NCBI GenBank assembly: GCA_003599425.1
Contig: QZKC01000046.1
Location: 1 to 58,589, forward strand
DNA length: 58,589 bases
Source of the DNA: Nitrospiraceae bacterium
GTDB taxonomy: Bacteria; Nitrospirota; Thermodesulfovibrionia; UBA6902
Reading direction: 5' to 3'
Part shown: positions 3,710 to 54,873 of the stretch, piece after piece
Layout: each line of letters opens with the position of its first letter
Numbering within the stretch: the stretch's first letter is position 1
Notes under the pieces: model-generated
Database searches by the model: none
What the model was told of the DNA's origin: nothing
The model's input: only the letters and a program-made list of their open reading frames with translations
Made by a program: the position numbers and the translations under genes

Positions 3710-6700
3710 ATGGCAGAGGCTTTAAGAACGAGGAAAAATTTCGGGAAGATACCTGAAATACTTGCGATCCCGAACCTTATAGAGATCCAGAAGCGTTCCT
3801 TTGAACGTTTTCTGCAGGGAGATGTGTTAACTAACAAACGGGAAGACAATGGCTTACAGTCGGCTTTTAACAGCGTATTCCCCATAACCGACTATAATGA
3901 AACAGCTTCCATTGAGTTTATTGAATATATAATCGGGAATCCTAAATACACCATCCGGGAATGCCTTGAAAAGGGCATAAACTACGCTGCCCCTCTCAAG
4001 ATCAGGGTCAAACTGAATCTGTGGGAAAAAGGGGAAGGCGGGCAAAAACGTCTGAAAGAATCCAGGGAGCAGGAAGTCTACCTGGGAGAATTGCCGTTAA
4101 TGACCGATACAGGCACATTTATCATAAACGGAGTAGAGAGGGTGGTTGTCAGCCAGCTTCACCGTTCTCCGGGCATATTCTTCAGTCATGACAAAGGCAA
4201 GGCCCCTGCAGGGAGCAAAGTGCTTTTCTCCGCCAGGATTATCCCGGCACGAGGGTCCTGGTTTGACTTTGAATTTGACACGAAAGACACCCTCTTTGTA
4301 AGGATCGACCGCAGAAAAAAGCTGCATGCCACTATCATTCTTAAAGCCCTCGGGTACACAGAGGAGCAGATACTGAAACTCTATTATCCGATAGAAGAGA
4401 TCAAGATAAAAAACAGCCTTGCGACACGTGCTGTAAGCGAAGTGCTTGCAGGATCAAAGGCGTTTAAGAACATAACGGACCCGAAGACACATGAAGTGAT
4501 CGTCAAGGAAGGCGGAAGGATAACGAGATCGTCAATCAAAAAGATGGAAACCGCGCACATAAAAGATATTCCGGTACTGAAAGAAGAGCTTGTCGGAAGG
4601 GTGACCCTGACCGATATTATTGACCCTGAAACAGGGGAGATTATCCTGGAAAGCAATGAAGAGATCACGGAGCAGATGATAGAAAAAATCTTCTCTGTGA
4701 AGATCCCGACGCTTCAACTCCTTTACATCGACGGGATCCGCTATCTCTCCTCACTGCGTGATACGCTCCTTCTGGACAAGGTTAACAGTACTGAAGAGGC
4801 GCTGATCGAGATCTATAAAAAACTGAGGCCGGGTGAACCACCGTCACTTTCGGACGCACGGGCGCTATTTGAGGGGCTGTTCTTTGACCCCAGGCGCTAT
4901 GACCTGTCTGAAGTAGGGCGGCTCAAGCTGAACAAACGTCTTGGACTTGATATTCCCTTGGAGACAAGGGTGTTGACCGATAAGGACATCATTGAGATCC
5001 TTCGTTACCTTTTTGATCTCAGGGCAGGAAAAGGCGAAATCGACGATATTGACCATCTCGGGAACAGGAGGGTAAGAGCTGTGGGTGAGTTGCTCGAAAA
5101 CCAGTTCAGGATCGGTCTTGTGAGGATGGAGCGTGCGATAAAGGAAAAAATGACCCTTACAGAACTTGAGACAGCAATGCCTCATGATATCATCAATGCA
5201 AAGCCTGTTATTGCCGTTATTAAGGAGTTCTTTGGTTCAAGCCAGCTCAGCCAGTTTATGGACCAGACAAACCCGCTCTCAGAGATAACGCATAAAAGGA
5301 GATTAAGCGCTCTTGGCCCAGGCGGCTTGACAAGAGAAAGGGCCGGCTTTGAAGTCAGAGACGTGCACCCGACCCACTATGGCCGTATTTGCCCTGTAGA
5401 GACGCCAGAAGGTCCCAACATCGGACTGATAACATCTCTTGCTTCATACGCACGGGTAAATGATTACGGGTTTATCGTTTCACCTTACAGAAAAGTTATC
5501 AAAGGAAGAGTGAGCGATGAGATACAGTACCTTGACGCGATAGATGGAGAAAAGCACGTCATTGCTCAGGCGACGTCGCCGATTGATGCAAAAGGCAATC
5601 TTATAGGTGAGACCATATCAGCTCGGGTCGGCGGGGACTTCAAGCTCGTTACGCCGGACGAAGTGGAATATATCGATGTGTCTCCAAAACAGATAGTGAG
5701 CGTTTCCGCGTCACTGATACCGTTCCTTGAAAATGACGATGCGAACAGGGCGCTCATGGGTTCAAACATGCAGAGGCAGGCAGTCCCGCTTCTGCAGACC
5801 GATGCCCCGAGGGTCGGAACAGGCGTAGAGGCAGTTGCCGCTCGCGACTCGGGTGTTGCCGTGACCGCCAGGAAATCCGGAATTGTGGAATCAGTTGACG
5901 CATCGCGGATCATGATCCGTTGTGATGACGGCGGCGCTGATGTATACAATCTGGTTAAATTCTACAGGTCCAATCAGGCTACCTGCGTAAACCAGAAGCC
6001 GATCGTCAGGGCAGGACAGAGAGTAAAAAAGAATCAGGTCATTGCGGATGGCCCTGCGACCGACAAGGGAGAACTTGCTCTTGGGAAGAATGTATTTGTT
6101 GCTTTTATGCCCTGGGGCGGGTACAACTTTGAGGACGCGATCATCATAAGTGAGCGTCTTGTAAAAGATGACACGTACACTTCGATACACATTGAAGAAT
6201 TTTTAATAGAAGCCCGTGAAACCAAGCTGGGCCCTGAGGAAATAACGAGAGATATTCCCAATATCGGGGAGGAAGCTCTCAAGGATCTCGACGAAAGCGG
6301 CATCATCAGGACCGGCGCCTATATAAAGCCCGGGGATATCCTCGTGGGCAAGGTCACTCCAAAGAGCGAGACACAGCTTACACCGGAAGAAAAACTCCTG
6401 AGAGCCATCTTCGGTGAAAAAGCAGAGGAGGTAAGGGAAAATTGCCTCTATGTGCCGCCAGGGATCGAAGGGATTGTCCTTGATGTTAAAGTCTTTACAC
6501 GTAAAGGCGCTTCAAAGGACAAGCGGACCAAGAGCATCGAGGAAGAAAAAATATATCAGATCAAGAGAAACCTTGAAGACGAGGTCGAGATAATTACAGA
6601 GAACGGCCACAAAAAAATGAGAGACCTGATATTGAATGAAAAAGTGGCAGAGGATGTAAAGGTCTCCGGGGTCAAGGATATTTTATGTGAAAGCGGAAAG

Positions 6701-7696
6701 CGTATCACGGACAAGATACTTGAGAGGATACCGGATAAATCTCTCCATAAGGTAAAACTCTCTGACCCGGATAAAATGGACAAGCTCAAAGCCATCGAAG
6801 ATGAAACAACAAGGAGGGTCAAAGAGCTTGAAGACCAGTATGAGAAAAAGCTGGAGCAGTTCAAAAAAGGAGACGAGCTTCCGCCCGGAGTCCTTAAGAT
6901 CGTAAAGGTTTACATAGCGATGAAAAGGAAAATACAGGTGGGAGACAAGATGGCAGGAAGGCACGGGAACAAGGGTGTTATCTCCATTGTCGTGCCTGAG
7001 GAGGACATGCCCTACCTTCCTGACGGGACCCCTATCGATGTCATTCTGAATCCACTTGGTGTTCCATCGCGTATGAATGTCGGACAGGTGCTTGAAACCC
7101 ATCTCGGATGGGCTGCTAAGGAATTGAACCTTTATGTCGCCACCCCAGTATTTGAGGGCGCGACCGAACGCGAGATAAAGGGCCTCCTGAAAGAGGCAGG
7201 ACTTCCCGAAAACGGGCAGGTAGTTCTCTATGATGGAAAGACAGGATTGCCGTTCCAGAAGCCGATCACAGTTGGTTCCATGTATATCATGAAACTCCAC
7301 CATCTCGTTGAAGACAAGATACATGCCCGCTCGATCGGGCCGTACTCGCTCGTTACGCAGCAGCCGCTGGGAGGAAAGGCGCAGTTCGGAGGACAGAGAC
7401 TGGGTGAGATGGAAGTCTGGGCGCTTGAGGCCTACGGCGCTTCATATACCCTTCAGGAATTTCTTACTGTAAAGAGTGATGATGTTGCCGGAAGGGCGCG
7501 GGTGTATGAGGCTATCGTGAAAGGCGATGTAAACCTCGAACCCGGGGTGCCGGAGTCATTTCATGTTCTCATTAAAGAACTGCAGAGTCTGGCTCTTGAT
7601 GTAGACCTGCTGGAAGAAAAAGCGATTGAAAAAGGGAAAGACGGCGGCAGCGAGAAACCTGAAAAACGCAAGGCAGTTGCCGGAAAGAAGAAATAA
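3710..7696 (+). CDS. rpoB: DNA-directed RNA polymerase subunit beta
   Basis: Full-length RpoB; start chosen at ATG 3710 ([13 protein letters not shown]) behind AAAAAGGAGT instead of the ORF-track start at 3662, which lies in the intergenic repeat. Confidence 0.98.
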
Positions 7697-12574: not shown

Positions 12575-13063
12575 CTACCAGACAATGGTGACAGTGAGGG
12601 TTTCAGTATAAGTACCTGCTGAAACATTTTGCTGCGGCGGTATCCTGCCGTAGACTGTGCTTATCCACGGCGATCTTTTGAAAACCTTATTCTGAGCGGT
12701 GAAGGTATTGCCGCTTCCGTCCCCCCATATCTGGGTGCATGCTGCATCAATATATAAATTATAGCTGATGAGATCAGTGCTGCCTGACTGCTTCATTTTT
12801 CTCGGGCTGAATCCACCCGAATTAGGACTTGGCCCGATGGAGAGCGTTACAAATGGCGGCGGGGTTTCATCACAGTCCACGGTTATGCTGGCTGCTGTAT
12901 CAAGCGGGCTTGAGGACAGGACGTTATAACTTCCGAAATTGACCGGTGTGGTCGATAGCGTGCAGACAGCGTGTGCCGGATATAATGGGTTGGAAAAAAT
13001 AATAGCAGCCATAATACAGAAGATAATTAGTATCCATACGCTGCTTCTACTGTTCACAGGCAA
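12575..13063 (-). CDS. Spore coat U (SCPU) domain protein, probable pilus tip/minor subunit
   Basis: Signal peptide; CTLSTTPVNFGSYNVLSSSPLDTAASITVDCD ... YGRIPPQQNVSAGTYTETLTVTIVW; 3' end of the pilus operon. Confidence 0.85.
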   Translation of the reverse strand: MPVNSRSSVWILIIFCIMAAIIFSNPLYPAHAVCTLSTTPVNFGSYNVLSSSPLDTAASITVDCDETPPPFVTLSIGPSPNSGGFSPRKMKQSGSTDLISYNLYIDAACTQIWGDGSGNTFTAQNKVFKRSPWISTVYGRIPPQQNVSAGTYTETLTVTIVW

Positions 13064-15401
13064 TGTCTCCCATATCTAAAAGTATTTCGTCACTGTCCGG
13101 TATGGTCATGGAAAATCTGCATTCGCTTCCCTGATACATGACCCATGCCTGATGTGTACCGGGGGGGATGTTCTCAATATAAAATTCGCCGCTTCTCCCG
13201 ACAAGGCCTTCCAATATTTTATAATTCGCCTGAATGAACAGTCGTCCGAATTCTGGCTTGGCCCTCTCTCTGTTTCTCATTATGGACAGAGTTCCTGTCA
13301 GGGCCTGCATTTTGTTTAAGGAAAATGCAAGCAAAGAGCCGCTTCGTGAGGAAGGGGACAAGTATTTTGACAATTCCCTGATCGTGTAATTAAGCGGAAT
13401 GTCCTGGCTTTCAATGCTGATCCTGTTGTCCTGAAATGAGCTGAGGTTAGGAATGATCAGCTCACCGTTGCTGTCTGTCACGCCGACCTCATTACTGTAA
13501 TGATACACCCTGACGTCTTTAAGGTTACTGACCTTTACCTTGGCGAAGCTGTCGGTTATGGGTCTGCTCAGGAATATCGACCTGTCAATGTATCCGATGC
13601 CCCCTGATAATGACAGTCCATATCCGGTATTGTTCTCATCACCGGTCACATTGATCTCATACTGACCATGATTGTTCTGGTAGAACAGGGCCCCTTTGAC
13701 ACTATTATTATCGCCTGATTTCAAAATGTCGGTTCCAAAACCGAATCCGGCGCCGGGAGGTGGGCTTTTGTGAATGCCGAGCGCTTGGCTTGACGAGTGG
13801 TTGTCTTTAGCAGAATACAGAGACCCGGATATCCCTTTCCCGAAATATACGTGCAAGCCCAAAAGGATCTCATCATTTACTTCTGAATCCCTTGTTTCAC
13901 TGGCAGAGACAAAAAAAGAAGCCCTCTCCGAGAATGATCTGCTATAGCTTAAAGACACGCGGGACGCCTCTCCGTGCTGGTACATGTCAGCATATGAGTA
14001 TTCTGCTGTAAGGTAACCTGTTTTTTTCCCGCCGAATCCTATTGCTCCCGCAGAGTATATTTTTGCCTTGTCATCTGAAGGCTTCACGGCAAGGTTGGAG
14101 TAATTGCGTGAATCTGACCGTGCAACAAGTTTGACATTTACATTTCTGGACTGATAAAAGTATCCCATCATTCCACTTAATCCCGGTTCCCCGGACCGGG
14201 CGCTGAACGCGATGGAAGAGTCAATAACTCCGGCGTTCCCAGCAAGAAAGGACACATAAGCACCAATATTCATTACATCTGTGGATGCTTCTGCTGCATA
14301 GCCTGCCTTCAGTTTTTCTGAGAATCCATAATTGTGAAACGCCAGGAACGCGGGCTTTCCGTAAGAAAAACTTTTTGTCCCGAAATCCTTTTTCATGAAA
14401 CCTGCGCTGTAGCTGTACTCGTGAAGTCCTTTTTTCAGGAGGCGGTTGCTGTAGTAATAGGGTGTTATCACATTCCTTTCTCTCCCATAAGCGTCTTTTA
14501 TCACCATGTTCGCAGTTCCGAGACCTGTTGTAGCGGGGATGTCATTGAAAGTAAATTCACCAGGCAGCAATTTCTCTTTTCTGACAAGTGCACCGTCCAG
14601 ATATATTTCTACATCTGAAGGGGTCTCGAGGGTTCCGTTGAGTTTTAGAGGAGGGAATATGACAAGAGACGGATCGATCGAAAAATTTGACGAATACTGA
14701 ATGCCGCCGAGAAGTGCTGCTGAGCCTAATGGCCCTGGGTAGGCCTGGAAATCTCCGAATGTTACAGTCTGCAATGTGTCTCTGTAGTTTCTGACAAGAC
14801 TGCTCATTAACCGTGCGGCTGTCTTTTCATCTCCTGTCTTCTGGTATGTAAATGTTGTTGTGCCGAGATAATCCCCAACACTGACGCCGAACTCACCTGA
14901 AATGCCTGTGAATGATTCTCCTCTGCCGTTTTCATAATCAAATGAGTAATTCAGAAAGGCGGAACGGTCCTGAGCAACTACCGGTTTATATTTTTTGGCA
15001 TAAGATGTATCGATGTCCTGTTCTCTGAACAGAGAGGGGGATGCCTTTATCTCAAGGGATACTGTTTCTTCTTCAATACTGTATTGGAGACCTGGGATTG
15101 ATTTCAGTGAGACGCAGGTGGCCCCATTGACCTGAATGTCCTGTCCCAGGCCCTCTTTCAGTCCCAGCTGCTCGAAATCATTTCTTGGCATCAATATATC
15201 CCCTTCCGGAACGATGACAAAGAAAAATTCGCCTTTGTCCTGTTCGTTCAGGAGCAGCTTTAAGACTGCCTGATCTTCAGCAGGAGAAGCATAAGGCGAA
15301 ATGAATACGATGAATATTGCATAGAGAATTATGCGTTTAAGTGCCGCACATTTCCCTAACGATGTCAATTTGTTTCCCCATCTCAAACCTGTCTGTCTCA
15401 A
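13047..15401 (-). CDS. Outer membrane fimbrial usher protein (archaic chaperone-usher type)
   Basis: 784 aa; LNGTLETPSDVEIYLDGALVRKEKLLPGEFTFNDIPATTGLGTANMVIKDAYGRE usher motif; exact start uncertain (overlaps the chaperone 3' end). Confidence 0.9.
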   Translation of the reverse strand: MRQTGLRWGNKLTSLGKCAALKRIILYAIFIVFISPYASPAEDQAVLKLLLNEQDKGEFFFVIVPEGDILMPRNDFEQLGLKEGLGQDIQVNGATCVSLKSIPGLQYSIEEETVSLEIKASPSLFREQDIDTSYAKKYKPVVAQDRSAFLNYSFDYENGRGESFTGISGEFGVSVGDYLGTTTFTYQKTGDEKTAARLMSSLVRNYRDTLQTVTFGDFQAYPGPLGSAALLGGIQYSSNFSIDPSLVIFPPLKLNGTLETPSDVEIYLDGALVRKEKLLPGEFTFNDIPATTGLGTANMVIKDAYGRERNVITPYYYSNRLLKKGLHEYSYSAGFMKKDFGTKSFSYGKPAFLAFHNYGFSEKLKAGYAAEASTDVMNIGAYVSFLAGNAGVIDSSIAFSARSGEPGLSGMMGYFYQSRNVNVKLVARSDSRNYSNLAVKPSDDKAKIYSAGAIGFGGKKTGYLTAEYSYADMYQHGEASRVSLSYSRSFSERASFFVSASETRDSEVNDEILLGLHVYFGKGISGSLYSAKDNHSSSQALGIHKSPPPGAGFGFGTDILKSGDNNSVKGALFYQNNHGQYEINVTGDENNTGYGLSLSGGIGYIDRSIFLSRPITDSFAKVKVSNLKDVRVYHYSNEVGVTDSNGELIIPNLSSFQDNRISIESQDIPLNYTIRELSKYLSPSSRSGSLLAFSLNKMQALTGTLSIMRNRERAKPEFGRLFIQANYKILEGLVGRSGEFYIENIPPGTHQAWVMYQGSECRFSMTIPDSDEILLDMGDIACEQ

Positions 15402-16080
15402 TATGCAGGCTCAGGGTCTTTATGCCGCGGCACATGTCCTGAGGTATATCAAACGTAAATGACTTTGACTTGCCGTGATGCAGGTACCCGCCTGCCCTTT
15501 CTGCAGTATATAGTTCCTTGCCGGATACGTCTTTGCCCGCTATTTGCATTGATTTAATAATAAAGTGGATATTCCCCTCGTTCCTGATGCCTACGGATAG
15601 AGCGCTGCCTGTCATATCAAAAGTATGGATAACTCCTGATGCGTTTGCCTTTAGAGGGGATATGAATATCGGAACACCGACTTTCATGATGATCTTGACT
15701 GCTGTGGTGTCTGTCTGGCTGTTATCAGGGATCTCTTCGAAGAAAAGCCTGTATGTCTTTTCCGCCTCCTCATGCGGAACTTTGATACCTATCCTGACTA
15801 TTTTTTCTTCTTCCGGAGCTAATTCCAGCAGCTTTGGAAAAAAGAGGATGTCATCAGTTGACGAATAAACATTGTCCTCTTTCTCATCCTGTGTCCACGC
15901 TACTGAGCTGAGCTGCAGCGCCACTTTGCCCTGGGATTCGTTTTTTATGGTAACAACATCTGTTTTCTTGCTGCTGTCAAAAAAAATTCTTACGGGGTTT
16001 ATCGAGAAATCCACGGAAAAACTATCTGTGGGTAACATGGTCAGGGCAAACAAACATATGATCAATTTCATCGTTATCAT
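15337..16080 (-). CDS. PapD-like periplasmic fimbrial chaperone
   Basis: FSINPVRIFFDSSKKTDVVTIKNESQGKVALQLSSVAW...; start placed at an internal Met (16080 or 16071) before the signal peptide rather than at 16182. Confidence 0.87.
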   Translation of the reverse strand: MITMKLIICLFALTMLPTDSFSVDFSINPVRIFFDSSKKTDVVTIKNESQGKVALQLSSVAWTQDEKEDNVYSSTDDILFFPKLLELAPEEEKIVRIGIKVPHEEAEKTYRLFFEEIPDNSQTDTTAVKIIMKVGVPIFISPLKANASGVIHTFDMTGSALSVGIRNEGNIHFIIKSMQIAGKDVSGKELYTAERAGGYLHHGKSKSFTFDIPQDMCRGIKTLSLHIETDRFEMGKQIDIVREMCGT

Positions 16081-16210
16081 TCTGAAAGATATATTATTTT
16101 CTGACACTATAGCTCCTTTTAGCGATACGTTTGATGTATTGCATGGTTGCCGCCGATAAATCTGGCGGCATATCTCTGTCAACTTTGTGAGATCAGACAG
16201 TTTATTTTAG

Positions 16211-16250
16211 TAAACGGTCAAAGAGAGCCTGTGGCCCTCTTTGACCGTTC
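16211..16250 (-). terminator. Hairpin between major pilin and chaperone genes (terminator/attenuator)
   Basis: AACGGTCAAAGAG ... CTCTTTGACCGTT perfect 13-bp arms, followed on the minus strand by TTTACTAAAATAAA. Confidence 0.75.
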
Positions 16251-16265
16251 CAGTAAAACTAATTG

Positions 16266-16730
16266 CTAATATGCTACTGTTACGGTTACAGTCCCGTTGT
16301 AGGTTCCAGCCTGAACATCCTGAGAAGCCGGAATCCTTCCATAGATATTTTTTGTTATCGTGCTGTTGTTGGCAGCGGTTCCGGTCACACCTGGTGCAGT
16401 GCTCGGCCATAGAGTTGATCTTCCAGATTCCTGATACATTTCAAAGTTCAGCGTATCTGTACCGTCTGTCATGCTTCTTGAACCTGTTATATAGACATCA
16501 TACGCGGTACCCTTTGTACAGGTAAAAGCCACATCTCCAACGCCGTCATCATCATTAGTAGCGGATGTCGGATCGTATGTACCGAAGTTGAGGTTTGTGA
16601 CGCTGGATATGCTGCAGGTTCCTGCGACTGTTACGGTTGAGCTTAAAGACCTTGTGTCTGTTGCGGCCATGGCATTAACAGATGTAAATACAACTGCCGC
16701 TGCCATGAGACTGAGTAGAATACGTTTCAT
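16266..16730 (-). CDS. Spore coat U domain protein, probable major pilin subunit
   Basis: Signal peptide; TVAGTCSISSVTNLNFGTYDP ... NIYGRIPASQDVQAGTYNGTVTVTVAY. Confidence 0.87.
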   Translation of the reverse strand: MKRILLSLMAAAVVFTSVNAMAATDTRSLSSTVTVAGTCSISSVTNLNFGTYDPTSATNDDDGVGDVAFTCTKGTAYDVYITGSRSMTDGTDTLNFEMYQESGRSTLWPSTAPGVTGTAANNSTITKNIYGRIPASQDVQAGTYNGTVTVTVAY

Positions 16731-16929
16731 ACACTTTCTCCTTTTTTGTTTTTGAGGTTTTTTGTTGTGCGCACAGGTCTTATTTCTCGGCAGCTTTTTT
16801 CAAAACTTTAGCTCTTGATGCAAAAATTTATCAATTTTTTTAAGTAGTTAAAACCTTACTGGCTAACCCATAGGGGAAAGCCTGATGGCGCATAAGTGAG
16901 ATGATTGATTATTAGGGGAAAGGCTATTT

Positions 16930-17394
16930 TCAGTAGGCGGAAGATACCATAAATGAGACAGGCCAGTCGTAGTAGCCAGGTGTGGTGTTACTTGATAGAT
17001 AAAATCTGAAGCTTAGGTCTTTAGTAAAGCTTTTTGCTTCATTATATGGAATGTAAAGTTCATTGTTACTATCCTGAATTTTGAGAGAACCAGTATTTGT
17101 TGATACGATTGCCCCCTGGGGAAAATCGTTGTTAGTGAAAAAGGTTATGAATAGGCCGCTATTGGAATTTGTTTTTATTTTTATGGTGATGGCATTATTT
17201 ATATCAATGTAGCCCCTGTTAATATCTTCGTTAGTAACTACTATGTGATCTTCCTGATGAATAGTCTCATACTTTAAGGTCGGCAGTACTGTTACACGGG
17301 CTGTTAAAGGGGCACTGTTATTTTCTGCAAATATTTCAGGGCCATAGATTAATAAGAGGAAGAGTAATGATAATGCTATGAATAATGTTCTCAT
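16930..17394 (-). CDS. Secreted protein of unknown function, first gene of the pilus cluster
   Basis: MRTLFIALSLLFLLLIYGPEIFA signal peptide; beta-rich sequence, C-term GYYDWPVSFMVSSAY resembles a subunit last strand; start at ATG 17394 preferred over GTG 17403. Confidence 0.6.
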   Translation of the reverse strand: MRTLFIALSLLFLLLIYGPEIFAENNSAPLTARVTVLPTLKYETIHQEDHIVVTNEDINRGYIDINNAITIKIKTNSNSGLFITFFTNNDFPQGAIVSTNTGSLKIQDSNNELYIPYNEAKSFTKDLSFRFYLSSNTTPGYYDWPVSFMVSSAY

Positions 17395-17406
17395 GTTATG
17401 CACAAA

Positions 17407-39354: not shown

Positions 39355-40896
<1,542 letters not shown>

Positions 40897-41021: not shown

Positions 41022-42203
41022 ATGAGTCTTTTAAACGAATATATCAATAAAAGGATGAGTGGTAACGACCTTGAGGTTGAGCTACTAAGATTAATCTCCG
41101 AATATAATAAACTTCGAAAAACATATCTATTCGTGTATGCTGCTGCAATTGGGAAACCGATTCCCTCAGTTCCGTTAGAACAATCAGATTTTTATGTTTT
41201 TCATGATTTGCTTTCAGGTAAGAAAGATTACAAAAGAGTTGATATTTATCTGGAGACACCGGGAGGAAGCGGCGAGACAGCCGAAGAAATAGTTGAATTT
41301 CTCCGTAATAATTTTGATACTGTTTCATTTGTCGTATCTGGAGAAGCTAAAAGCGCTGGAACAATCATAGTCTTGTCAGGAGATGAAATATTAATGACGG
41401 AGACTGGAAGTTTGGGGCCGATAGATGCTCAAGTTAGGATAGGACGCTTTGTTGTTTCAGCATATGATTATATTGAATGGGTGAATGAAAAGAGAAAAGA
41501 GGCCGAGAAGCAAGGGGCTTTAAATCCATTTGACGCTACGATGATAGCTCAGATCACGCCTGGAGAGTTAAGCGGAGTTTATCATGCATTGGAATATGCA
41601 AAGGACTTAGTTGTTGATTGGCTTACAAAGTACAAGTTTAAGAAGTGGATTGTTACAGAGACAAACAAATTGCCTGTAACTGAACAAATTAAAAGAAAAC
41701 GTGCTTCAGAGATCGCAAAAGAATTGACCGATCATTCAAAATGGAGATCTCATGGCAGATCAATAAAAAGATATGATTTAGAAGGCATAGGGTTAAAAAT
41801 TAAACGGGTTGAAGATGACTCAAAGTTGAGCGAGCTCATATACAGGATACAAATTGTTTGCAGACTGCTTTTTGATAATACGACAATCTTTAAGATATTT
41901 GCTACTGAAGACACCAAGATATTTAAACAAGCCGCACCTGCGAATGTTCCTATGAAAATCCCTGCTTCGGCAGTTAAACCTGATGCGGTTGAGATTGATC
42001 AAAAATGTCCGCAATGCGGAACAATTCATAAAATATATGCAAAGTTTGTAAACAATCCTAAGGTTGATCGGGAATTAACTGCAAAGGGGTTTAAACCGTT
42101 TCCTAAAGATGGTAAAATGATATGTAAGTGCGGGTATGAAGTTGATCTTTCCGGTATCAAGAATCAAATCGAAACAGATTTAGGAAGAAAAGTCATTGGT
42201 TAG
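41022..42203 (+). CDS. SDH-family Clp-fold serine proteinase with C-terminal zinc ribbon
   Basis: DIYLETPGGSGETAEEIVEFLR ... VVSGEAKSAGTIIVLSGDEILMTETGSLGPIDAQV (SDH/ClpP-like crotonase fold); C-term CPQCG...CKCG. Confidence 0.85.
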   Translation: MSLLNEYINKRMSGNDLEVELLRLISEYNKLRKTYLFVYAAAIGKPIPSVPLEQSDFYVFHDLLSGKKDYKRVDIYLETPGGSGETAEEIVEFLRNNFDTVSFVVSGEAKSAGTIIVLSGDEILMTETGSLGPIDAQVRIGRFVVSAYDYIEWVNEKRKEAEKQGALNPFDATMIAQITPGELSGVYHALEYAKDLVVDWLTKYKFKKWIVTETNKLPVTEQIKRKRASEIAKELTDHSKWRSHGRSIKRYDLEGIGLKIKRVEDDSKLSELIYRIQIVCRLLFDNTTIFKIFATEDTKIFKQAAPANVPMKIPASAVKPDAVEIDQKCPQCGTIHKIYAKFVNNPKVDRELTAKGFKPFPKDGKMICKCGYEVDLSGIKNQIETDLGRKVIG

Positions 42204-42212
42204 GAGGACGAA

Positions 42213-42392
42213 ATGATATCTGAAAAGCCCGAAGAAAGAAAAAAAGAAGAAGAGGCTCTAATTACTTTTCTCAAACGGACCAAAGACGGGGAATATGCCA
42301 GAATTGATAAGGCTTCTCTCGTTTATTCAAGAGTTAAGGAGCAGAGAGAACCATACTATAATGATGAGGAGTATTATTACAGCCTCAGATAG
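42213..42392 (+). CDS. Short 59-aa hypothetical protein coupled to the SDH-type proteinase
   Basis: Not in ORF track; GGAGG ribosome-binding site then ATG; MISEKPEERKKEEEALITFLKRTKDGEYARIDKASLVYSRVKEQREPYYNDEEYYYSLR*; 9-nt gap from upstream stop. Confidence 0.6.
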   Translation: MISEKPEERKKEEEALITFLKRTKDGEYARIDKASLVYSRVKEQREPYYNDEEYYYSLR

Positions 42393-42675
42393 AATTCTTC
42401 ATTGTATCCATCTTCTAAATAGTAATTCACCATTTCTATTGAAATAGTTTTTGTAGTAACTTAATCTTTTCCTATGTGTTCACGCAGACTGGATAGGGGA
42501 AAAGCAGATTATGAACTACAAGAGAGAAGTCCCTTTCAGGCTTTTAAAAGAGGGTCAATTCCTGTTTGACTTTGCATGACTGCACTGTTGCTTTTTTTCT
42601 GTTGCGCATTAACACTGTCTTTGCGTATGATATTTTTAATTCTATGAGGAGGATGTCATTTGTAGGAGGGTAATA

Positions 42676-44568
42676 GTGAGTAAGGATTTCGTTGATATTC
42701 AAAAAATAATTCGGCAAGGAATGGAATCCTATTTACAAGAAAGAGGATTTCCTTCTTTGGAAAATGCTAATAAAAAGCAAAGAGCAAAGGCGTTACTTGA
42801 ATATTACACGAAAGATATTGGTGCTTACCTGTACCAATTTGACGAAGATCAAATAGATGAGGGACTCAGATGTGATGGTTCAAGTGACCTAAATATAGAT
42901 TTTGTCTATAAACATGAAGATACTTTTTATATCATACAATCTAAATACAAGAAATCTGGATGTCTTGACCGGGATGAAGTTTCAGGATTTTTTAAAATTC
43001 ATTCGAGGATACTTGATAAAGAATTCTTTGAGATGAATGCTAATGATACAGTGAAGGATATTCTATCTAATTTCAAAAAAAACAGCCCTGTGCATTATAT
43101 TCTGTTAACTAATTGTCAAATTACCGATACTATCCGGAGTCAATTTAATAAAGAACTTCAGGATGAACAAAAACATTATAAGACGCCGCAAATCTCTTGG
43201 GAATTGAAAGGTTTGACAGAGATAAAACAGGATTATAAAACAGCATTGTCATCGGATGAGCCAATTCCAGAGAAAGTAGTAATCCCACTTGAAAGAATTA
43301 CTAATCATTTTACCGATAAAAAAGAATGGTCATATTTAGACCTGACAAACATTCTTGATGAAGATTTACCTTACCAGACAATCCTGTGTACAGTTAAGGG
43401 GATTGTTCTAAAAGAATTGTATAAACAACATAAAGAGAGACTATTTAACTATAACATTAGAGGGTATCTTGGGCAGAATGTAATAAATAAAAGAATTATT
43501 AATACCATTGAGGAAGACCCGAAATCATTTTATCTTTACAATAATGGAATTTCAGCTATTTGTAGTAATCTCTCCCCGGAAGAAACTTCAGGAGGACATG
43601 GCTTGCAAATAATTTGTGATAATTTTCAAATAATAAACGGTGCTCAAACTACATCATGCATCGGGAAATTTAGAGATGATGCGAAACTGAGGGATGTTCG
43701 GGTTCTTCTAAAAATTACAAAATCAGCAGATATTAAAAAAGAAAGTAAGTCTCTAAATAGAAAGATCATTACTAATAATAATAGTCAAACTGTGATAAAA
43801 GCATCAGACTTTAGGTCAAATGATGAAATTCAAATATTTTTAGAGAAAAAATTTTCAACTTATCACTATAAAGTAACTCCGCCCTTCAAAAGGATAATAT
43901 ATATGCCTAAACGTAAAAAAATATCTAAAAGAAGTGATGAGGTGTTTATAAATATGGAAACCTTAGCAAAAATTATTTTTGCTTTTCATTATGTCCCATA
44001 TCCAATATATGCCAACTCAAATATATTGTTTGATACTGATTCTTCAACCAATGGCAAGTACTGGGATATATTCGGTGAGAATGGAGAGGAACTCTGCTTC
44101 TGGCCTGAAGAGAAAGTCAAAGAAGCTGTAGCTATTTCTATTATATGGTTATATGTTTCTGAAAAACTTAAGACAAAAGCAAAGGAATTAACTCTTCAGA
44201 AAAAAGAAGGTACCATCGATTATCTTGCATGTCTTGCAAAATGGCATTATTTATGGGCCTATGGTGATTTAATCAAGAGGCTTTATCCTGATAAAATGAC
44301 TTGGATAGTAAATAGAGTTGTTGATGGAAAGTTATTTTCAAAGGAAAATAACTTCATTGATATTTGGTTTGAGGGTATAACAGAAAAAATAACAGATGTT
44401 CTCGATTCAGCTTATCAAGACTCTAAAGATGAAGAAGATAGTAATGAAGCAGTTTCCAAAGGATTTCAATTCAAAAATTGGTTAAGAAATCAAAAAGCAT
44501 TCGACAAACTTCGTTCAAAATTTAAAAGGGCAAGTACAACAACATTCACTTTAGACAAAGCTGAATAA
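42676..44568 (+). CDS. AIPR-family protein (abortive infection phage resistance-like), probable nuclease
   Basis: GTG start with GGAGG; LFNYNIRGYLGQNVINKRIINTIEEDPKSFYLYNNGISAIC and NFQIINGAQTTSCIG are AIPR hallmarks; N-term SSDLNIDFVYKHEDTFYIIQSKYKK resembles a restriction-endonuclease-like core. Confidence 0.87.
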   Translation: MSKDFVDIQKIIRQGMESYLQERGFPSLENANKKQRAKALLEYYTKDIGAYLYQFDEDQIDEGLRCDGSSDLNIDFVYKHEDTFYIIQSKYKKSGCLDRDEVSGFFKIHSRILDKEFFEMNANDTVKDILSNFKKNSPVHYILLTNCQITDTIRSQFNKELQDEQKHYKTPQISWELKGLTEIKQDYKTALSSDEPIPEKVVIPLERITNHFTDKKEWSYLDLTNILDEDLPYQTILCTVKGIVLKELYKQHKERLFNYNIRGYLGQNVINKRIINTIEEDPKSFYLYNNGISAICSNLSPEETSGGHGLQIICDNFQIINGAQTTSCIGKFRDDAKLRDVRVLLKITKSADIKKESKSLNRKIITNNNSQTVIKASDFRSNDEIQIFLEKKFSTYHYKVTPPFKRIIYMPKRKKISKRSDEVFINMETLAKIIFAFHYVPYPIYANSNILFDTDSSTNGKYWDIFGENGEELCFWPEEKVKEAVAISIIWLYVSEKLKTKAKELTLQKKEGTIDYLACLAKWHYLWAYGDLIKRLYPDKMTWIVNRVVDGKLFSKENNFIDIWFEGITEKITDVLDSAYQDSKDEEDSNEAVSKGFQFKNWLRNQKAFDKLRSKFKRASTTTFTLDKAE

Positions 44569-44676: not shown

Positions 44677-46218
44677 ATGCACTTTACAGAAAAAATACTC
44701 GTCCTCGACTTCGGTTCACAATATACCCAGCTCATCGCGCGAAGGGTGCGGGAGCAGAAGGTGTACTCTGAAATTTTACCTTATAACGTTTCACTCGAAA
44801 GGATAAAGGAGTTTGCCCCAAAAGGTATAATCCTTTCCGGCGGCCCTTCAAGCGTCTATGACAAGAAAGCGCCATTGCCGGACAAGGGAATATTTGAACT
44901 TGGCATCCCAGTCCTGGGCATATGCTATGGCATGCAGCTCATGGCATACATGCTTGGCGGCAAGGTAGCAAAAGCGGCAAAGAGGGAATACGGGCGTGCT
45001 GAGCTGACAATTGATGATAATTCGGACTTGCTGAAAAAGATGGGAGCAAGGGGAATCGTATGGATGAGTCATGGCGACAAAATAGTGAGACAGCCTAAAG
45101 GCTTCACCCCGATCGCGCATACCGGCAACTCGCCGATCGCTGCAATGGCAAACAAGGACAGAAAATTTTACGCGCTGCAGTTCCATCCTGAGGTTGCTCA
45201 TACGGAAAACGGGACGAAGGTGCTGAAAAACTTTGTATTCAATATCTGCAAATGCAAACCTGAATGGACCATGCAGTCATTCATCGGGACAACGACGAAA
45301 GAGATCAGGGAAAAGGTCGGACGGGACAAGGTCGTGTGCGCTATCAGCGGCGGTGTTGATTCCGCTGTAACGGCTGTACTCATTCACAAAGCCATAGGGA
45401 AACAGCTCACCTGTATCTTTGTTGACAACGGAGTGCTCAGGAAAGGCGAGGCGGACAAAGTGGAAAGCACTTTGAAAAAACATTTCCACATGAACATCGT
45501 CTGTGTTGACGCCTCAAAGAGATTCCTCAAAAAGCTGAAGGGAGTTACCGATCCCGAAAAGAAAAGAAAGATCATCGGCAATGAATTCATTCATGTCTTT
45601 GAGGAAGAGGCAAAGAAGATAAAAGGCGCTAAATATCTTGCACAGGGGACGCTTTATCCTGATGTTATTGAGAGCACGTCATTCAAGGGGCCTTCTGCCA
45701 CGATAAAAAGCCATCACAATGTCGGCGGGCTTCTAAAGGACATGAAACTCAGGCTCATTGAACCCCTCAGGGAGCTTTTCAAGGACGAAGTGCGGGTGCT
45801 TGGAAGGGAACTGGGAATGGCGGATGAGATCATCAGCAGGCATCCCTTTCCCGGCCCCGGGCTTGCGATACGGATTATAGAGGAAGTTACGCAGGAAAGG
45901 GCAGAGATACTCAGGAAGGCTGACGCGATAGTCCTTGAAGAGATAAAAAAGGCGGGACTGTACCATGACATCTGGCAGGCCTTCGCCGTACTGCTTCCCA
46001 TCAAGACAGTCGGCGTCATGGGCGATGAGAGGACCTATGAGAATGTAGTTGCCGTGAGAGCGGTAAAGAGCGTTGACGGCATGACTGCTGACTGGGCGAA
46101 GATCCCCTATGAAGTCCTCGGCATCATCTCCAACAGGATAATCAATGAAGTAAAAGGCATCAACAGGGTAGTGTTCGACATCAGTTCAAAGCCTCCAAGC
46201 ACGATAGAGTGGGAGTGA
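44677..46218 (+). CDS. guaA: GMP synthase (glutamine-hydrolysing)
   Basis: [58 protein letters not shown]. Confidence 0.98.
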
Positions 46219-50255: not shown

Positions 50256-50382
50256 AGTTACTCGTTAACTCTGTAATTCTTGCAATTACTTACGGATTGA
50301 TACCCTTTTAAAGAATATTCTTCACTAATTTCATTGAAGAAAATTGGTATGGCATCCTATCTATTATGAAAAGGAGATACGC

Positions 50383-51027
50383 ATGAAACTTGTTTTGTTG
50401 GGAGCCCCGGGAGCCGGGAAAGGCACTCAGGCAAAGAAACTTATTGAAAAATATGGCATACCCCAGATCTCTACCGGAGATATCCTCAGAAAGGCCGTTG
50501 CAGACGGCACCCCCCTTGGCAAAGAAGCAAAATCATATATGGACAAAGGCGAGCTTGTTCCTGACTCTGTTGTAATTGGGCTGGTGAAAGAAAGGCTCGC
50601 ACAGGATGACTGCAAAAAAGGATATATCCTTGACGGCTTTCCGAGAAATACGTCCCAGGCAGAGACTCTCGACAAGGTGCTTTCCGGAATGAACGCATCT
50701 CTTGATGTAGCGCTCAGTGTTGACGTTGACAAGGACGACCTCATGAAGAGGCTCACCGGCAGGAGGACCTGCAAGGGCTGCCAGCAGATGTACAATGTTC
50801 ATTTTTCACCCTCAAAGGTGGACGGCAAGTGCGACAAGTGCGGCGGCGAGCTCTATCAGAGGGATGATGACAAAGAAGCGACCATCAAGAACAGGCTTGA
50901 CGTATATGAAAAGGCAACTGCGCCACTTATCGAGTATTACAGCAGGAAGGGCATTCTCAAGTCTGTCATGGGCGTGGGAAACATAGATCAGATTTTCAGC
51001 AAAATTTGCTCCATACTTGGAAATTAA
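50383..51027 (+). CDS. adk: Adenylate kinase (zinc LID type)
   Basis: MKLVLLGAPGAGKGTQAKKL; LID CKGCQQMYNVHFSPSKVDGKCDKCGG (Cys4). Confidence 0.97.
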   Translation: MKLVLLGAPGAGKGTQAKKLIEKYGIPQISTGDILRKAVADGTPLGKEAKSYMDKGELVPDSVVIGLVKERLAQDDCKKGYILDGFPRNTSQAETLDKVLSGMNASLDVALSVDVDKDDLMKRLTGRRTCKGCQQMYNVHFSPSKVDGKCDKCGGELYQRDDDKEATIKNRLDVYEKATAPLIEYYSRKGILKSVMGVGNIDQIFSKICSILGN

Positions 51028-51069
51028 AATACAGCACGTTACTGAAATAACACTTTTAAGGAGGAAGAA

Positions 51070-52284
51070 ATGGCATTAGTCAATCCACATGGAAAAGAGA
51101 AGAAGCTTAAACCCCTTCTTCTCCAAGGCAAGGCACTTGAAGAAGCAAAGGCAAAGGCAAAATCCCTTACACAGGTCAGAATGAGCTCACGGGAAACAGG
51201 CGACCTCATCATGCTTGGTATCGGAGGTTTTACACCGCTTGAAGGCTTTATGACCAAGGCTGACTGGCAGGGCGTCTGCGATAAATATACAATGGCAGAC
51301 GGAACGTTCTGGCCGATACCGATCACGCTCTCAACGACAAAGGGACAGGCAGACAGTATCAAGATTGGAGAAGAGATCGCCCTTGTTGACGAGGAGAGCG
51401 GCGAGACAATGGGACTTATGACAGTGAAAGAGAAATACACGATCGACAAGGCACATGAATGCCAGAAGGTGTTTTGGACAACAGACACCGAGCATCCCGG
51501 AGTCGCAAAGGTCATGGCGCAGGGAGACGTTAACCTTGCAGGACCGGTAAAGGTACTGAGCCAGGGCAAATTCCCCGAGGAGTATCCCGGCGTATATCAG
51601 ACACCTGCAGAGTCAAGGAAGTTCTTTGAAGAAAAAGGCTGGTCCACCGTGGCAGCGTTCCAGACTCGTAACCCGATGCACCGTTCCCATGAATACCTCA
51701 CCAAGATCGCTATCGAGATCTGCGACGGCGTCTATATTCACATGCTTTTAGGAAAACTGAAAGCAGGCGACATCCCTGCTGATGTAAGGCAGAATGCTAT
51801 CGACGCACTTACAGCTAATTATTACGTTAAAGATTCCATAATGGTCGGAGGGTATCCTCTTGACATGAGATACGCAGGCCCGAGAGAGGCGCTACTTCAC
51901 GCACTCTTCAGACAGAACTACGGCTGCAGCCATCTTATCGTGGGCCGCGACCACGCAGGCGTCGGCGATTATTACGGGCCATTCGATGCTCATAAGATCT
52001 TTGACGAGATCCCGAAGGGCGCGCTCGAGACCCAGCCCCTTAAGATCGACTGGACCTTCTGGTGCCACAAGTGCGACGGCATGGCATCAATGAAGACCTG
52101 CCCGCATGGCAAGGAAGACAGGCTCATCCTCAGCGGTACCAAACTGAGAAAGATGCTTTCCGAGGGTGAGGAAGTATCTGACAAGTTCAGCAGGCCTGAA
52201 GTGCTTAAAATACTGAGGGCATATTATGAAGGCCTGAGTGAAAAAGTTGAAATAAAAATGCACAAGCATGCAGAAGGTGGATAG
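51070..52284 (+). CDS. sat: Sulfate adenylyltransferase (ATP sulfurylase)
   Basis: [29 protein letters not shown]. Confidence 0.97.
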
Positions 52285-52425
52285 AAGGCAGACAAGCATA
52301 CTGCTTTCTTTCGAGAGGGCATCTCTATATTGAAAGGAGGTGTTGAGCAGTTTTTGATTCATAAACAAACGGCAATAACTGAGCTTATGTTTAAGCTTAA
52401 AACACTAAAAAGGAGGTAACTTAGG

Positions 52426-52845
52426 ATGCCAAGTTTTGTAATCACAGAAAAATGCGACGGCTGTAAAGCACAGGACAAGACAGCATGTCAGTACATCTGC
52501 CCCAATGACCTCATGGCCCTGAACAGGGATCTCATGAAGGCATACAATCAGGAGCCGGATCAGTGCTGGGAGTGCTACAACTGCGTAAAGATCTGCCCCC
52601 AGCAGGCGATCGAAGTCAGAGGCTATCAGGATTTCAACCCGATCGGAGGCAATGTCATTCCGATGAGGGGTACCGACTCCATCATGTGGACGGTAAAATT
52701 CAGGAACGGGATACTGAAGAGATTCAAATTCCCGATCAGGACCACCGCAGAAGGTTCGGTTGATCCCTATGCAGGGAAGCCGGAGCCGGATTTCTCAAAA
52801 TTAAAAGCATCTGGCTTCTTCAATTACGAAGCCAGACAAGCATAA
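52426..52845 (+). CDS. aprB: Adenylylsulfate reductase subunit beta
   Basis: MPSFVITEKCDGCKAQDKTACQYICPNDLMALN...CWECYNCVKICPQQAIEVRGY. Confidence 0.97.
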   Translation: MPSFVITEKCDGCKAQDKTACQYICPNDLMALNRDLMKAYNQEPDQCWECYNCVKICPQQAIEVRGYQDFNPIGGNVIPMRGTDSIMWTVKFRNGILKRFKFPIRTTAEGSVDPYAGKPEPDFSKLKASGFFNYEARQA

Positions 52846-52863
52846 GAAGGAGGAAAGATAACC

Positions 52864-54873
52864 ATGGAAAAAGAAACTTGTACTTTTTCATACTGCGCAA
52901 AGCCGGAAGTTGTTGAAGTTGACTGCGACCTTCTTATCATCGGCGGTGGTATGTCCGCATGCGGCGCTGCATATGAGGCAGCCAGATGGGCAACACCAAA
53001 GAATATGAAGATAGTCATGGTCGACAAGGCAGCAACAGACAGAAGCGGCGCTGTTGCAATGGGTCTGTCAGCCATCAACACCTACATTGGCGAAAATAAA
53101 GTCGAAGACTATGTTAGATACGTCAGAGGCGACCTGATGGGCATAATCAGGGAAGACCTCGTATATGACCTCGGAAGGCACGTTGATGACAGCGTTCACC
53201 TTTTTGAGGAATGGGGACTCCCGATCTGGAAAAAAGGCGACGACGGTTTCTCTCTTGACGGCTTCCAGGCCAGAGACGAGGGAAAGAAGACCTTACAGGA
53301 TGGCGGTACACCAGTCAGATCCGGTAAATGGCAGATCATGATCAACGGTGAATCCTACAAGGTCATCGTTGCAGAAGCTGCAAAGAAAGCACTTGAATAC
53401 AACAAGAAGGCAACCGGAATGGCGCAGAACCATTTCGAGAGGGTCTTCATCGTGAGACTCCTTAAAGACGCAAACGATCCGAACAGGGTTGCGGCAGCAG
53501 CCGGTTTCAGCGTCAGAGAGAACAAGATGTACCTCTTCAAGGCAAAGGCAATGCTGCTTGGCGCAGGAGGCGCGGTCAACGTCTTCAGGCCGAGGTCCTC
53601 AAAAGAAGGACAGGGAAGAGCCTGGTATCCTGTATGGAACTCAGGTTCCGGATATGCACTCGGCATGCAGGCAGGCGCTGAACTGACCCTTATGGAAAAC
53701 AGGTTCGTGCCTGCGCGTTTCAAAGACGGTTACGGGCCGGTCGGCGCATGGTTCCTCTTCTTCAAGGCAAAAGCAACCAACAGCCTTGGTGAAGACTATT
53801 GCACAAACCCTGAATATCTTGCCGAAGCAAAACAGAAATACGGCAAGTATGTCGACAAGCTCGGCACAGCCATCAGAAACCACCTCATGATGAAAGACAT
53901 GAAGGCAGGCAAGGGACCTATCCTCATGAGGACTCACGAGGCCATGGACGCCATCAACAAGTCCTTCATCGAGAAGTTAGGCGAGAAGGAAGGCAAGAAG
54001 AAAGTGAAACACCTCGAAGCTGAGGCTTGGGAAGACTTCCTCGATATGTGCATCGGACAGGCAGGCCTCTGGGCATGCAAGAACATCGAGCCTGACAAGA
54101 CACCGTCAGAGATCATGCCGACAGAGCCGTATATCCTCGGTTCACACGCAGGCTGCGCAGGATTCTGGTGCAGCGGACCTGGCGACATGGCTGGAGCTCC
54201 GAAGGAATGGTCCTGGGGCTACAACAGGATGTCAACGGTTCCGGGCCTCTTCATGATGGGCGACATCGTCGGCGCATCAGGCCACAAGTTCTCCTCAGGC
54301 TCGCATGCTGAAGGAAGAATAGCGGCAAAGGCCGGACTCGCATTCATCCTTGACAACGCCAGCTACACTCCGAAGATCAGAAGGACGGTCGACGAAGTTG
54401 CAGCAGAGCTCTATGCTCCGTATGAAGTTTATGAGAAATACAAAACATACTCAACAGATCCTGAGATCAATCCGCACTACATCAAGCCGAGCCTGCTTCA
54501 GGCCAGACTGCAGAAGATCGCGGATGAGTACTTTGGCGGCATCTCAACATGGTACATGACCTCAAAGACCATGCTTGAGGAAGGGCTGAACCAGCTCAAG
54601 CTGCTCAAGGAAGACTCCAACAGAATGGCAGCGAGCACGCTCCATGAGCTGATGAGATGCTGGGAGAACTATCACAGGATACTCTCTCTCGAGGCGCATG
54701 CACGCCACATCCTCTTCAGGGAAGAGAGCAGATACCCCGGTTACTACTACAGAGGTGACTTCGATTTCATCGATGACAACAACTGGAAAGCATTCACCTG
54801 CTCCAAGTACAACATGGAAACCGGAGAGTTCGCCATGTCCAAGAGAGATTACGTGCAGATCGTTTCTGATTAA
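52864..54873 (+). CDS. aprA: Adenylylsulfate reductase subunit alpha
   Basis: CDLLIIGGGMSACGAAYEAARWA; ends RDYVQIVSD; adjacent to aprB. Confidence 0.97.
   Translation: MEKETCTFSYCAKPEVVEVDCDLLIIGGGMSACGAAYEAARWATPKNMKIVMVDKAATDRSGAVAMGLSAINTYIGENKVEDYVRYVRGDLMGIIREDLVYDLGRHVDDSVHLFEEWGLPIWKKGDDGFSLDGFQARDEGKKTLQDGGTPVRSGKWQIMINGESYKVIVAEAAKKALEYNKKATGMAQNHFERVFIVRLLKDANDPNRVAAAAGFSVRENKMYLFKAKAMLLGAGGAVNVFRPRSSKEGQGRAWYPVWNSGSGYALGMQAGAELTLMENRFVPARFKDGYGPVGAWFLFFKAKATNSLGEDYCTNPEYLAEAKQKYGKYVDKLGTAIRNHLMMKDMKAGKGPILMRTHEAMDAINKSFIEKLGEKEGKKKVKHLEAEAWEDFLDMCIGQAGLWACKNIEPDKTPSEIMPTEPYILGSHAGCAGFWCSGPGDMAGAPKEWSWGYNRMSTVPGLFMMGDIVGASGHKFSSGSHAEGRIAAKAGLAFILDNASYTPKIRRTVDEVAAELYAPYEVYEKYKTYSTDPEINPHYIKPSLLQARLQKIADEYFGGISTWYMTSKTMLEEGLNQLKLLKEDSNRMAASTLHELMRCWENYHRILSLEAHARHILFREESRYPGYYYRGDFDFIDDNNWKAFTCSKYNMETGEFAMSKRDYVQIVSD

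Follow-up and report, generated by a model that had tools for sequence, protein, structure and literature searches.

What occupies the interval between guaB and guaA in this Nitrospiraceae genome, and do the genes found there work as one system? In the window (the whole stretch of 58,589 nucleotides that was analysed), the ORF list places a protease gene, a small ORF and an AIPR gene between the two flanking genes and nothing else, and all five genes run on one strand (Table 1). The original prediction had placed the same three genes between guaB and guaA, the small ORF being 59 aa long, and the coordinates and Pfam families agree with that description. It had gone on to propose that the three genes form a single defence system.

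Table 1. Genes of the guaB–guaA interval and predicted functional residues, in window coordinates.
Feature	Position	Strand	Evidence
guaB (IMP dehydrogenase), upstream flank	39427..40896	+	PF00478 2.8e-163
SDH-type ClpP/SppA-fold serine protease (predicted fold), C-terminal zinc ribbon, 393 aa	41022..42203	+	PF01972, phrog_11747, AF2 model
Ser111 codon (GEAKSAG), predicted nucleophile	41352..41354	+	invariant 87/87; helix start in model
Asp135 codon (LGPIDAQ), predicted triad member	41424..41426	+	invariant 87/87
His244 codon (SHGR), predicted triad member	41751..41753	+	invariant 87/87
Four-cysteine zinc ribbon C329/C332...C368/C370	42006..42131	+	four Cys present in 40/87
Companion ORF, 59 aa, proposed inhibitor	42213..42392	+	companion HMM; position behind protease
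AIPR-family protein, 630 aa, GTG start, candidate stand-alone defence gene	42676..44568	+	PF10592, AbiU
AIPR N-terminal motif D75...Q88xK90 (NID...IIQSK)	42898..42945	+	alignment A4
guaA (GMP synthase), downstream flank	44677..46218	+	PF00117 7.9e-49, PF00958 8.8e-47

All three islet genes are A+T-rich in comparison with their flanks. GC (GC3) is 0.373 (0.307) for the protease and 0.316 (0.247) for the AIPR gene, against 0.516 (0.565) for guaB and 0.492 (0.591) for guaA, and the small ORF has a GC of 0.378. The AIPR gene had been called visibly more A+T-rich than its neighbours; the protease is A+T-rich too. Among 29 guaB loci of related genomes, guaA lies within about 330 bp of guaB in 18, while five have no guaA inside the examined stretch and three stop at a contig edge. 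Other small genes occupy the spot behind guaB in three of the 29: a TIGR04255-family cassette in G300 and in G325, where it reaches the contig end, and a DUF4258 gene in G321. Since this position varies among relatives, holding either guaA or other small genes, the islet was acquired, as had been supposed, and the region beside guaB is a small cargo hotspot in this family. The TIGR04255 cassette includes a 147-aa ORF, with DUF7689 added in G300, and another genome (G272) has a HEPN/nucleotidyltransferase pair near guaB. The cassettes on the guaB side in relatives lie at 4808-7237 of locus L057, 1831-3519 of L062, 1715-2604 of L064 and 7323-8047 of L058. At the borders of the insertion no convincing direct repeats or mobile-element signature were seen, and promoter and terminator signals were at chance level.

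The protease itself is patchily distributed. In a sample of 296 genomes of the phylum it was found in 25 and in none of the three genomes of the same genus, and its best match (77%) comes from another family of the same class. Two other regions of the window were read by eye. Consecutive minus-strand ORFs of 162, 784, 281, 154 and 157 aa at 12575-17403 resemble a chaperone-usher fimbrial or spore-coat-U type cluster, the last of them being A+T-rich (0.365). At 50344-54873 stand ORFs resembling adk, sat, aprB and aprA, a likeness which suggests that the organism may be sulfate-reducing or sulfur-oxidising.

The small ORF starts 9 nt past the protease stop, and its start is preceded by AGGAGG. 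Companions of this kind were counted in homologous loci as ORFs of 45-85 aa whose start falls within -30 to +60 nt of the protease stop, with the other CDS ends of the same loci as control. Such an ORF lies behind the protease in 35 of the 38 close homologues and in 50 of the 56 distant ones; the corresponding control values are 26 of 205 CDS ends (13%) and 68 of 391 (17%). The small ORF and the protease therefore belong together, as had been proposed, in the two-gene operon with a small partner that is looked for in a toxin-antitoxin system. All three exceptions among the close homologues are damaged loci: the protease is frameshifted in L121 and also in L123, where the companion is intact, and in L122 the companion is present and frameshifted; some loci are MAG contigs, in which binning and frameshift errors are possible. 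The unit is a two-gene module of protease and small ORF.

This module has spread widely and horizontally. A genome scan brought up 80 loci, spread over many bacterial phyla and Archaea, and with an iterated HMM members of the companion family were recognised downstream of the protease at 34 loci, again in both Bacteria and Archaea. Across 31 loci, protease identity and companion identity are correlated (r=0.85), which shows co-inheritance of the two and not contact. Beside the 77% protease relative (L069), a 59-aa ORF is 71% identical to the window companion, with 14/8/21 substitutions by codon position, and AIPR is absent nearby; likewise, a Leptospira plasmid carries a 52% identical protease and a 61-aa ORF without AIPR. 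Conservation of the companion is concentrated at its C-terminus, EEYYYSLR in the window. Companions of distant clades differ in sequence, and many of them appear, in our reading of the alignments, to begin with a helix-like part at the N-terminus and to continue in an extended segment of Y-x-L type. The neighbours of the close homologues, tallied without a matched control, are mixed; methyltransferase and type IIG restriction genes are among them, and no family dominates.

What kind of protease is it? It matches PF01972 (SDH_protease) at 3e-10, with 40 bits against a curated cut-off of 31.3, and phrog_11747 at 3e-49; against the NF047768 equivalog (Clp_like_SDH), it scores 50.1 bits, below the cut-off of 250. 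The AF2 model, for which one row of the input alignment (from a plasmid record) was left out, has a mean pLDDT of 89.7, and Foldseek matched it to the NfeD protease 1510-N, ClpP and SppA (best E 3.7e-5; TM-scores by target length 0.40-0.63). By this model, the protease is a ClpP-like-fold enzyme with a predicted nucleophilic Ser, and the family assignment as an SDH-type Clp-fold proteinase is borne out by PF01972. Ser111, Asp135 and His244 are invariant in 87/87 SDH-type homologues, as are Gly81 and Gly82, and Lys205 is conserved at 89%. Ser111-His244-Asp135 is accordingly read from conservation as the predicted catalytic triad. The zinc ribbon that had been proposed is also confirmed: the close family keeps C329, C332, C368 and C370 without exception (alignment A2), and the homologues that hold all four cysteines (Table 1) make up a zinc-ribbon subfamily.

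Compared with known enzymes, the protease shares a core with GG and Ser motifs with the SDH-type proteinases of PF01972 and NF047768, but differs from them in its zinc ribbon and dedicated companion. With SppA, NfeD (1510-N) and ClpP it shares the predicted fold and a Ser at a helix start after the GG motif. However, SppA and NfeD have a Ser-Lys dyad, whereas the invariant order in the window family is Ser111-Asp135-His244, and no AAA+ partner gene was seen beside it. Neither the protease nor the companion has any match in the PADLOC defence library, and no published function or experiment for the protease, the pair or DUF6527 was found in the literature searched. An identity as a phage head-maturation protease was considered and rejected: the profile matches are weak, and where phage copies are annotated they do not sit at the canonical position of a capsid protease. 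In a viral fold library, the top structural matches are SDH-fold proteases of giant viruses of protists (Mimivirus-like, Hyperionvirus, Klosneuvirus and others), which encode several of them.

The most informative relatives are carried by E. coli lambdoid prophages, in which a LexA/CI-type repressor is followed, directly or one small gene further on, by a 300-aa SDH protease and a 56-aa companion (5038-6879 of L210; also L214 and L216). This is the position held in lambda by rexAB, which sits behind the repressor and is expressed in the lysogen; we know of no sequence relation of the pair to RexA or RexB. In a blastn search of 5,426 E. coli genomes, 17 had a match to the protease and 20 to the companion, the companion match spanning the full query in 20/20. 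All 17 protease loci carry the companion, and a protease without it was not seen among them, whereas five of the 20 companion loci are without an intact protease. The companion stands alone behind the repressor, followed by hicBA, in FHI_NMBU_10, 48 and JNEC-KY176; in CP52E, an IS3 element has cut off the start of the protease, and in UCPROB-002, a frameshift splits it, with the companion intact in both. The three companion-only loci share one protein accession and probably derive from one deletion, so that, with the IS insertion and the frameshift, the independent losses of the protease number about three. Within E. coli, the large partner is thus never found without the small one, as toxins are not without their antitoxins, on the basis of few independent events. 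Type II toxin-antitoxin systems likewise keep the small partner when the large one is lost, although a protease would be an unusual toxin and its toxicity here is putative. Other phage copies of the protease occupy moron-like positions, lying between a late regulator and lysozyme in a Shewanella Mu-like phage and adjoining HicAB in Porphyromonas prophages. In prophage-like loci of Bacteroidota (4495-8482 of L112, and L170), the pair is found among phage structural genes.

The third gene of the islet is a clear member of the AIPR/AbiU/MzaE/phrog_1841 family, although it falls below the MzaE equivalog cut-off (72.4 bits against 1050) and has no MZA genes beside it. It matches PF10592 at 2.3e-36 (126.5 bits against a curated cut-off of 25), phrog_1841 at 3.8e-54 over residues 14-585, and PADLOC AbiU at 3e-24; its proposed link to defence by family is upheld by the PF10592 and AbiU matches. 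The protein is distant from all others found, the best being about 30% identical; no close relatives were found in viral contigs, and phages hold weak relatives only. In an alignment of 27 AIPR proteins (A4), D75 is at least 90% conserved and the consensus is GID...IxQxK; D...QxK is a signature of Mrr-like nucleases. The predicted structure of the N-terminus (pLDDT 82) gave no PDB match below E 0.3, so that the nuclease-like N-terminus of the original prediction is retained by its motif and not by its fold.

How might the pair act? Our preferred reading, which we hold tentatively and at a little short of an even chance, is that a mobile protease and its dedicated inhibitor, which together would probably form a module for phage exclusion or abortive infection, came to lie next to an independent AIPR defence gene in the variable spot behind guaB. 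This spot would have received two independent cargoes. The first would be a cytosolic ClpP/SppA-fold serine protease with a dedicated companion of ~60 aa. This companion would most likely act as an inhibitor or antidote, its conserved, extended C-terminal segment filling the substrate groove of the protease. Once the companion is lost or displaced, for instance upon phage infection, the protease would be free to cleave proteins of the host or the phage, leading to phage exclusion or abortive infection. The second cargo would be the AIPR gene, whose product likely acts in defence on its own, with an N-terminal, Mrr-like nuclease part. We infer that the companion is probably an inhibitor, and favour inhibitor or antidote over pure substrate, because it outlives the protease and never the reverse. 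A lock by the tail would be physically reasonable in this fold, since SppA in PDB 4kwb, which is on the Foldseek list, holds its own C-termini in its active sites. The defence reading draws mainly on the prophage position and the moron-like contexts, which make such a role of the pair plausible.

The proposal of a single defence system made up of all three genes could appeal to their shared strand and islet and to their common A+T-richness, yet we now regard it as very improbable and largely refuted. The nearest relatives have the protease and companion without AIPR. AIPR (PF10592) occurs in 5 of 45 other protease-carrying genomes, the same rate as the phylum background of 35/296, and in those five it lies on a contig other than that of the protease, as judged by contig numbers and lengths. 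The original prediction had called for a search for protease-AIPR neighbours across genomes and had named their never co-occurring elsewhere as evidence against a single system; the two are adjacent in none of the 45, and the three-gene system was rejected on this co-occurrence. The 283-nt gap that had been noted between the small ORF and the AIPR gene is of the length given and also speaks against one system, as does the GC3 of 0.31 for the protease against 0.25 for the AIPR gene, which suggests separate histories. The AIPR gene is independent cargo. The two-gene module could instead serve proteolysis under stress or in protein quality control, as an accessory function that travels on mobile DNA and is not concerned with phage defence. 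Its ClpP/SppA/NfeD fold would suit such a role, many neighbours are housekeeping genes and some contexts are ordinary chromosomal ones; however, we consider this unlikely given the patchy presence (25/296), the spread across domains, and the positions in prophage lysogeny operons, at moron-like sites and on plasmids.

The main rival of the inhibitor reading is that the companion is a cognate substrate or adaptor, whose C-terminus is trimmed or read so that an active peptide is released or targets are selected. The conserved C-terminus of the companion would fit this, and so would the operons in which SDH-type relatives occur, where the fold may act on the tails of small proteins. On Rhizobium and Methylocystis plasmids (L221, L222, L220, L225), a multiubiquitin-domain gene, an E1-like ThiF gene and DUF6527 precede an SDH-type protease, and the Methylocystis operon has an annotated E2/UBC gene. 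R. gallicum has both a ubiquitin-like gene in the operon and a 68-aa ORF behind the protease, and one ubiquitin-like operon with an SDH-type relative is without the companion. Because relatives occur in such operons, once without a companion, an SDH-type protease can have other partners. The Rhizobium plasmid proteases are about 39-42% identical, over the matched part, to that of the window or of E. coli; the window protease differs in having an unrelated 59-aa protein as partner. We presume that these multiubiquitin/E2/ThiF/DUF6527 operons resemble Bub operons, whose protease reportedly acts on ubiquitin-like conjugates; for the window family, this resemblance of its relatives may serve as a lead only. 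No ubiquitin-like, E1 or E2 gene was found beside the protease among the window ORFs, and no ubiquitin-like operon was seen among the listed neighbours of the close homologues, which counts against the substrate reading. A Prok-E2_B search of 29 genomes with close homologues gave zero matches, as did the controls. Persistence of the companion after loss of the protease would also be unexpected for a pure substrate, and we judge the substrate or adaptor reading to be rather unlikely, with the inhibitor reading preferred.

A broader proposal, possible but doubtful in our estimate, is that SDH-type ClpP-fold proteases with small companions constitute an unrecognised cross-domain class of toxin-antitoxin or phage-exclusion modules, kin to the protease of the ubiquitin-like operons; in the modules that stand alone, the companion tail would serve as a C-terminal pseudo-substrate lock that infection frees. 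The protease family is widely annotated (its prophage form in 17 E. coli genomes), and its function was not found in the literature searched. Recognition of a dedicated small partner turns it into a testable hypothesis, that of a protease toxin with its inhibitor in a prophage-encoded exclusion system. The pairing would account for the persistence of one protease on mobile DNA across Bacteria and Archaea, and may tie it to the ubiquitin-like operons.
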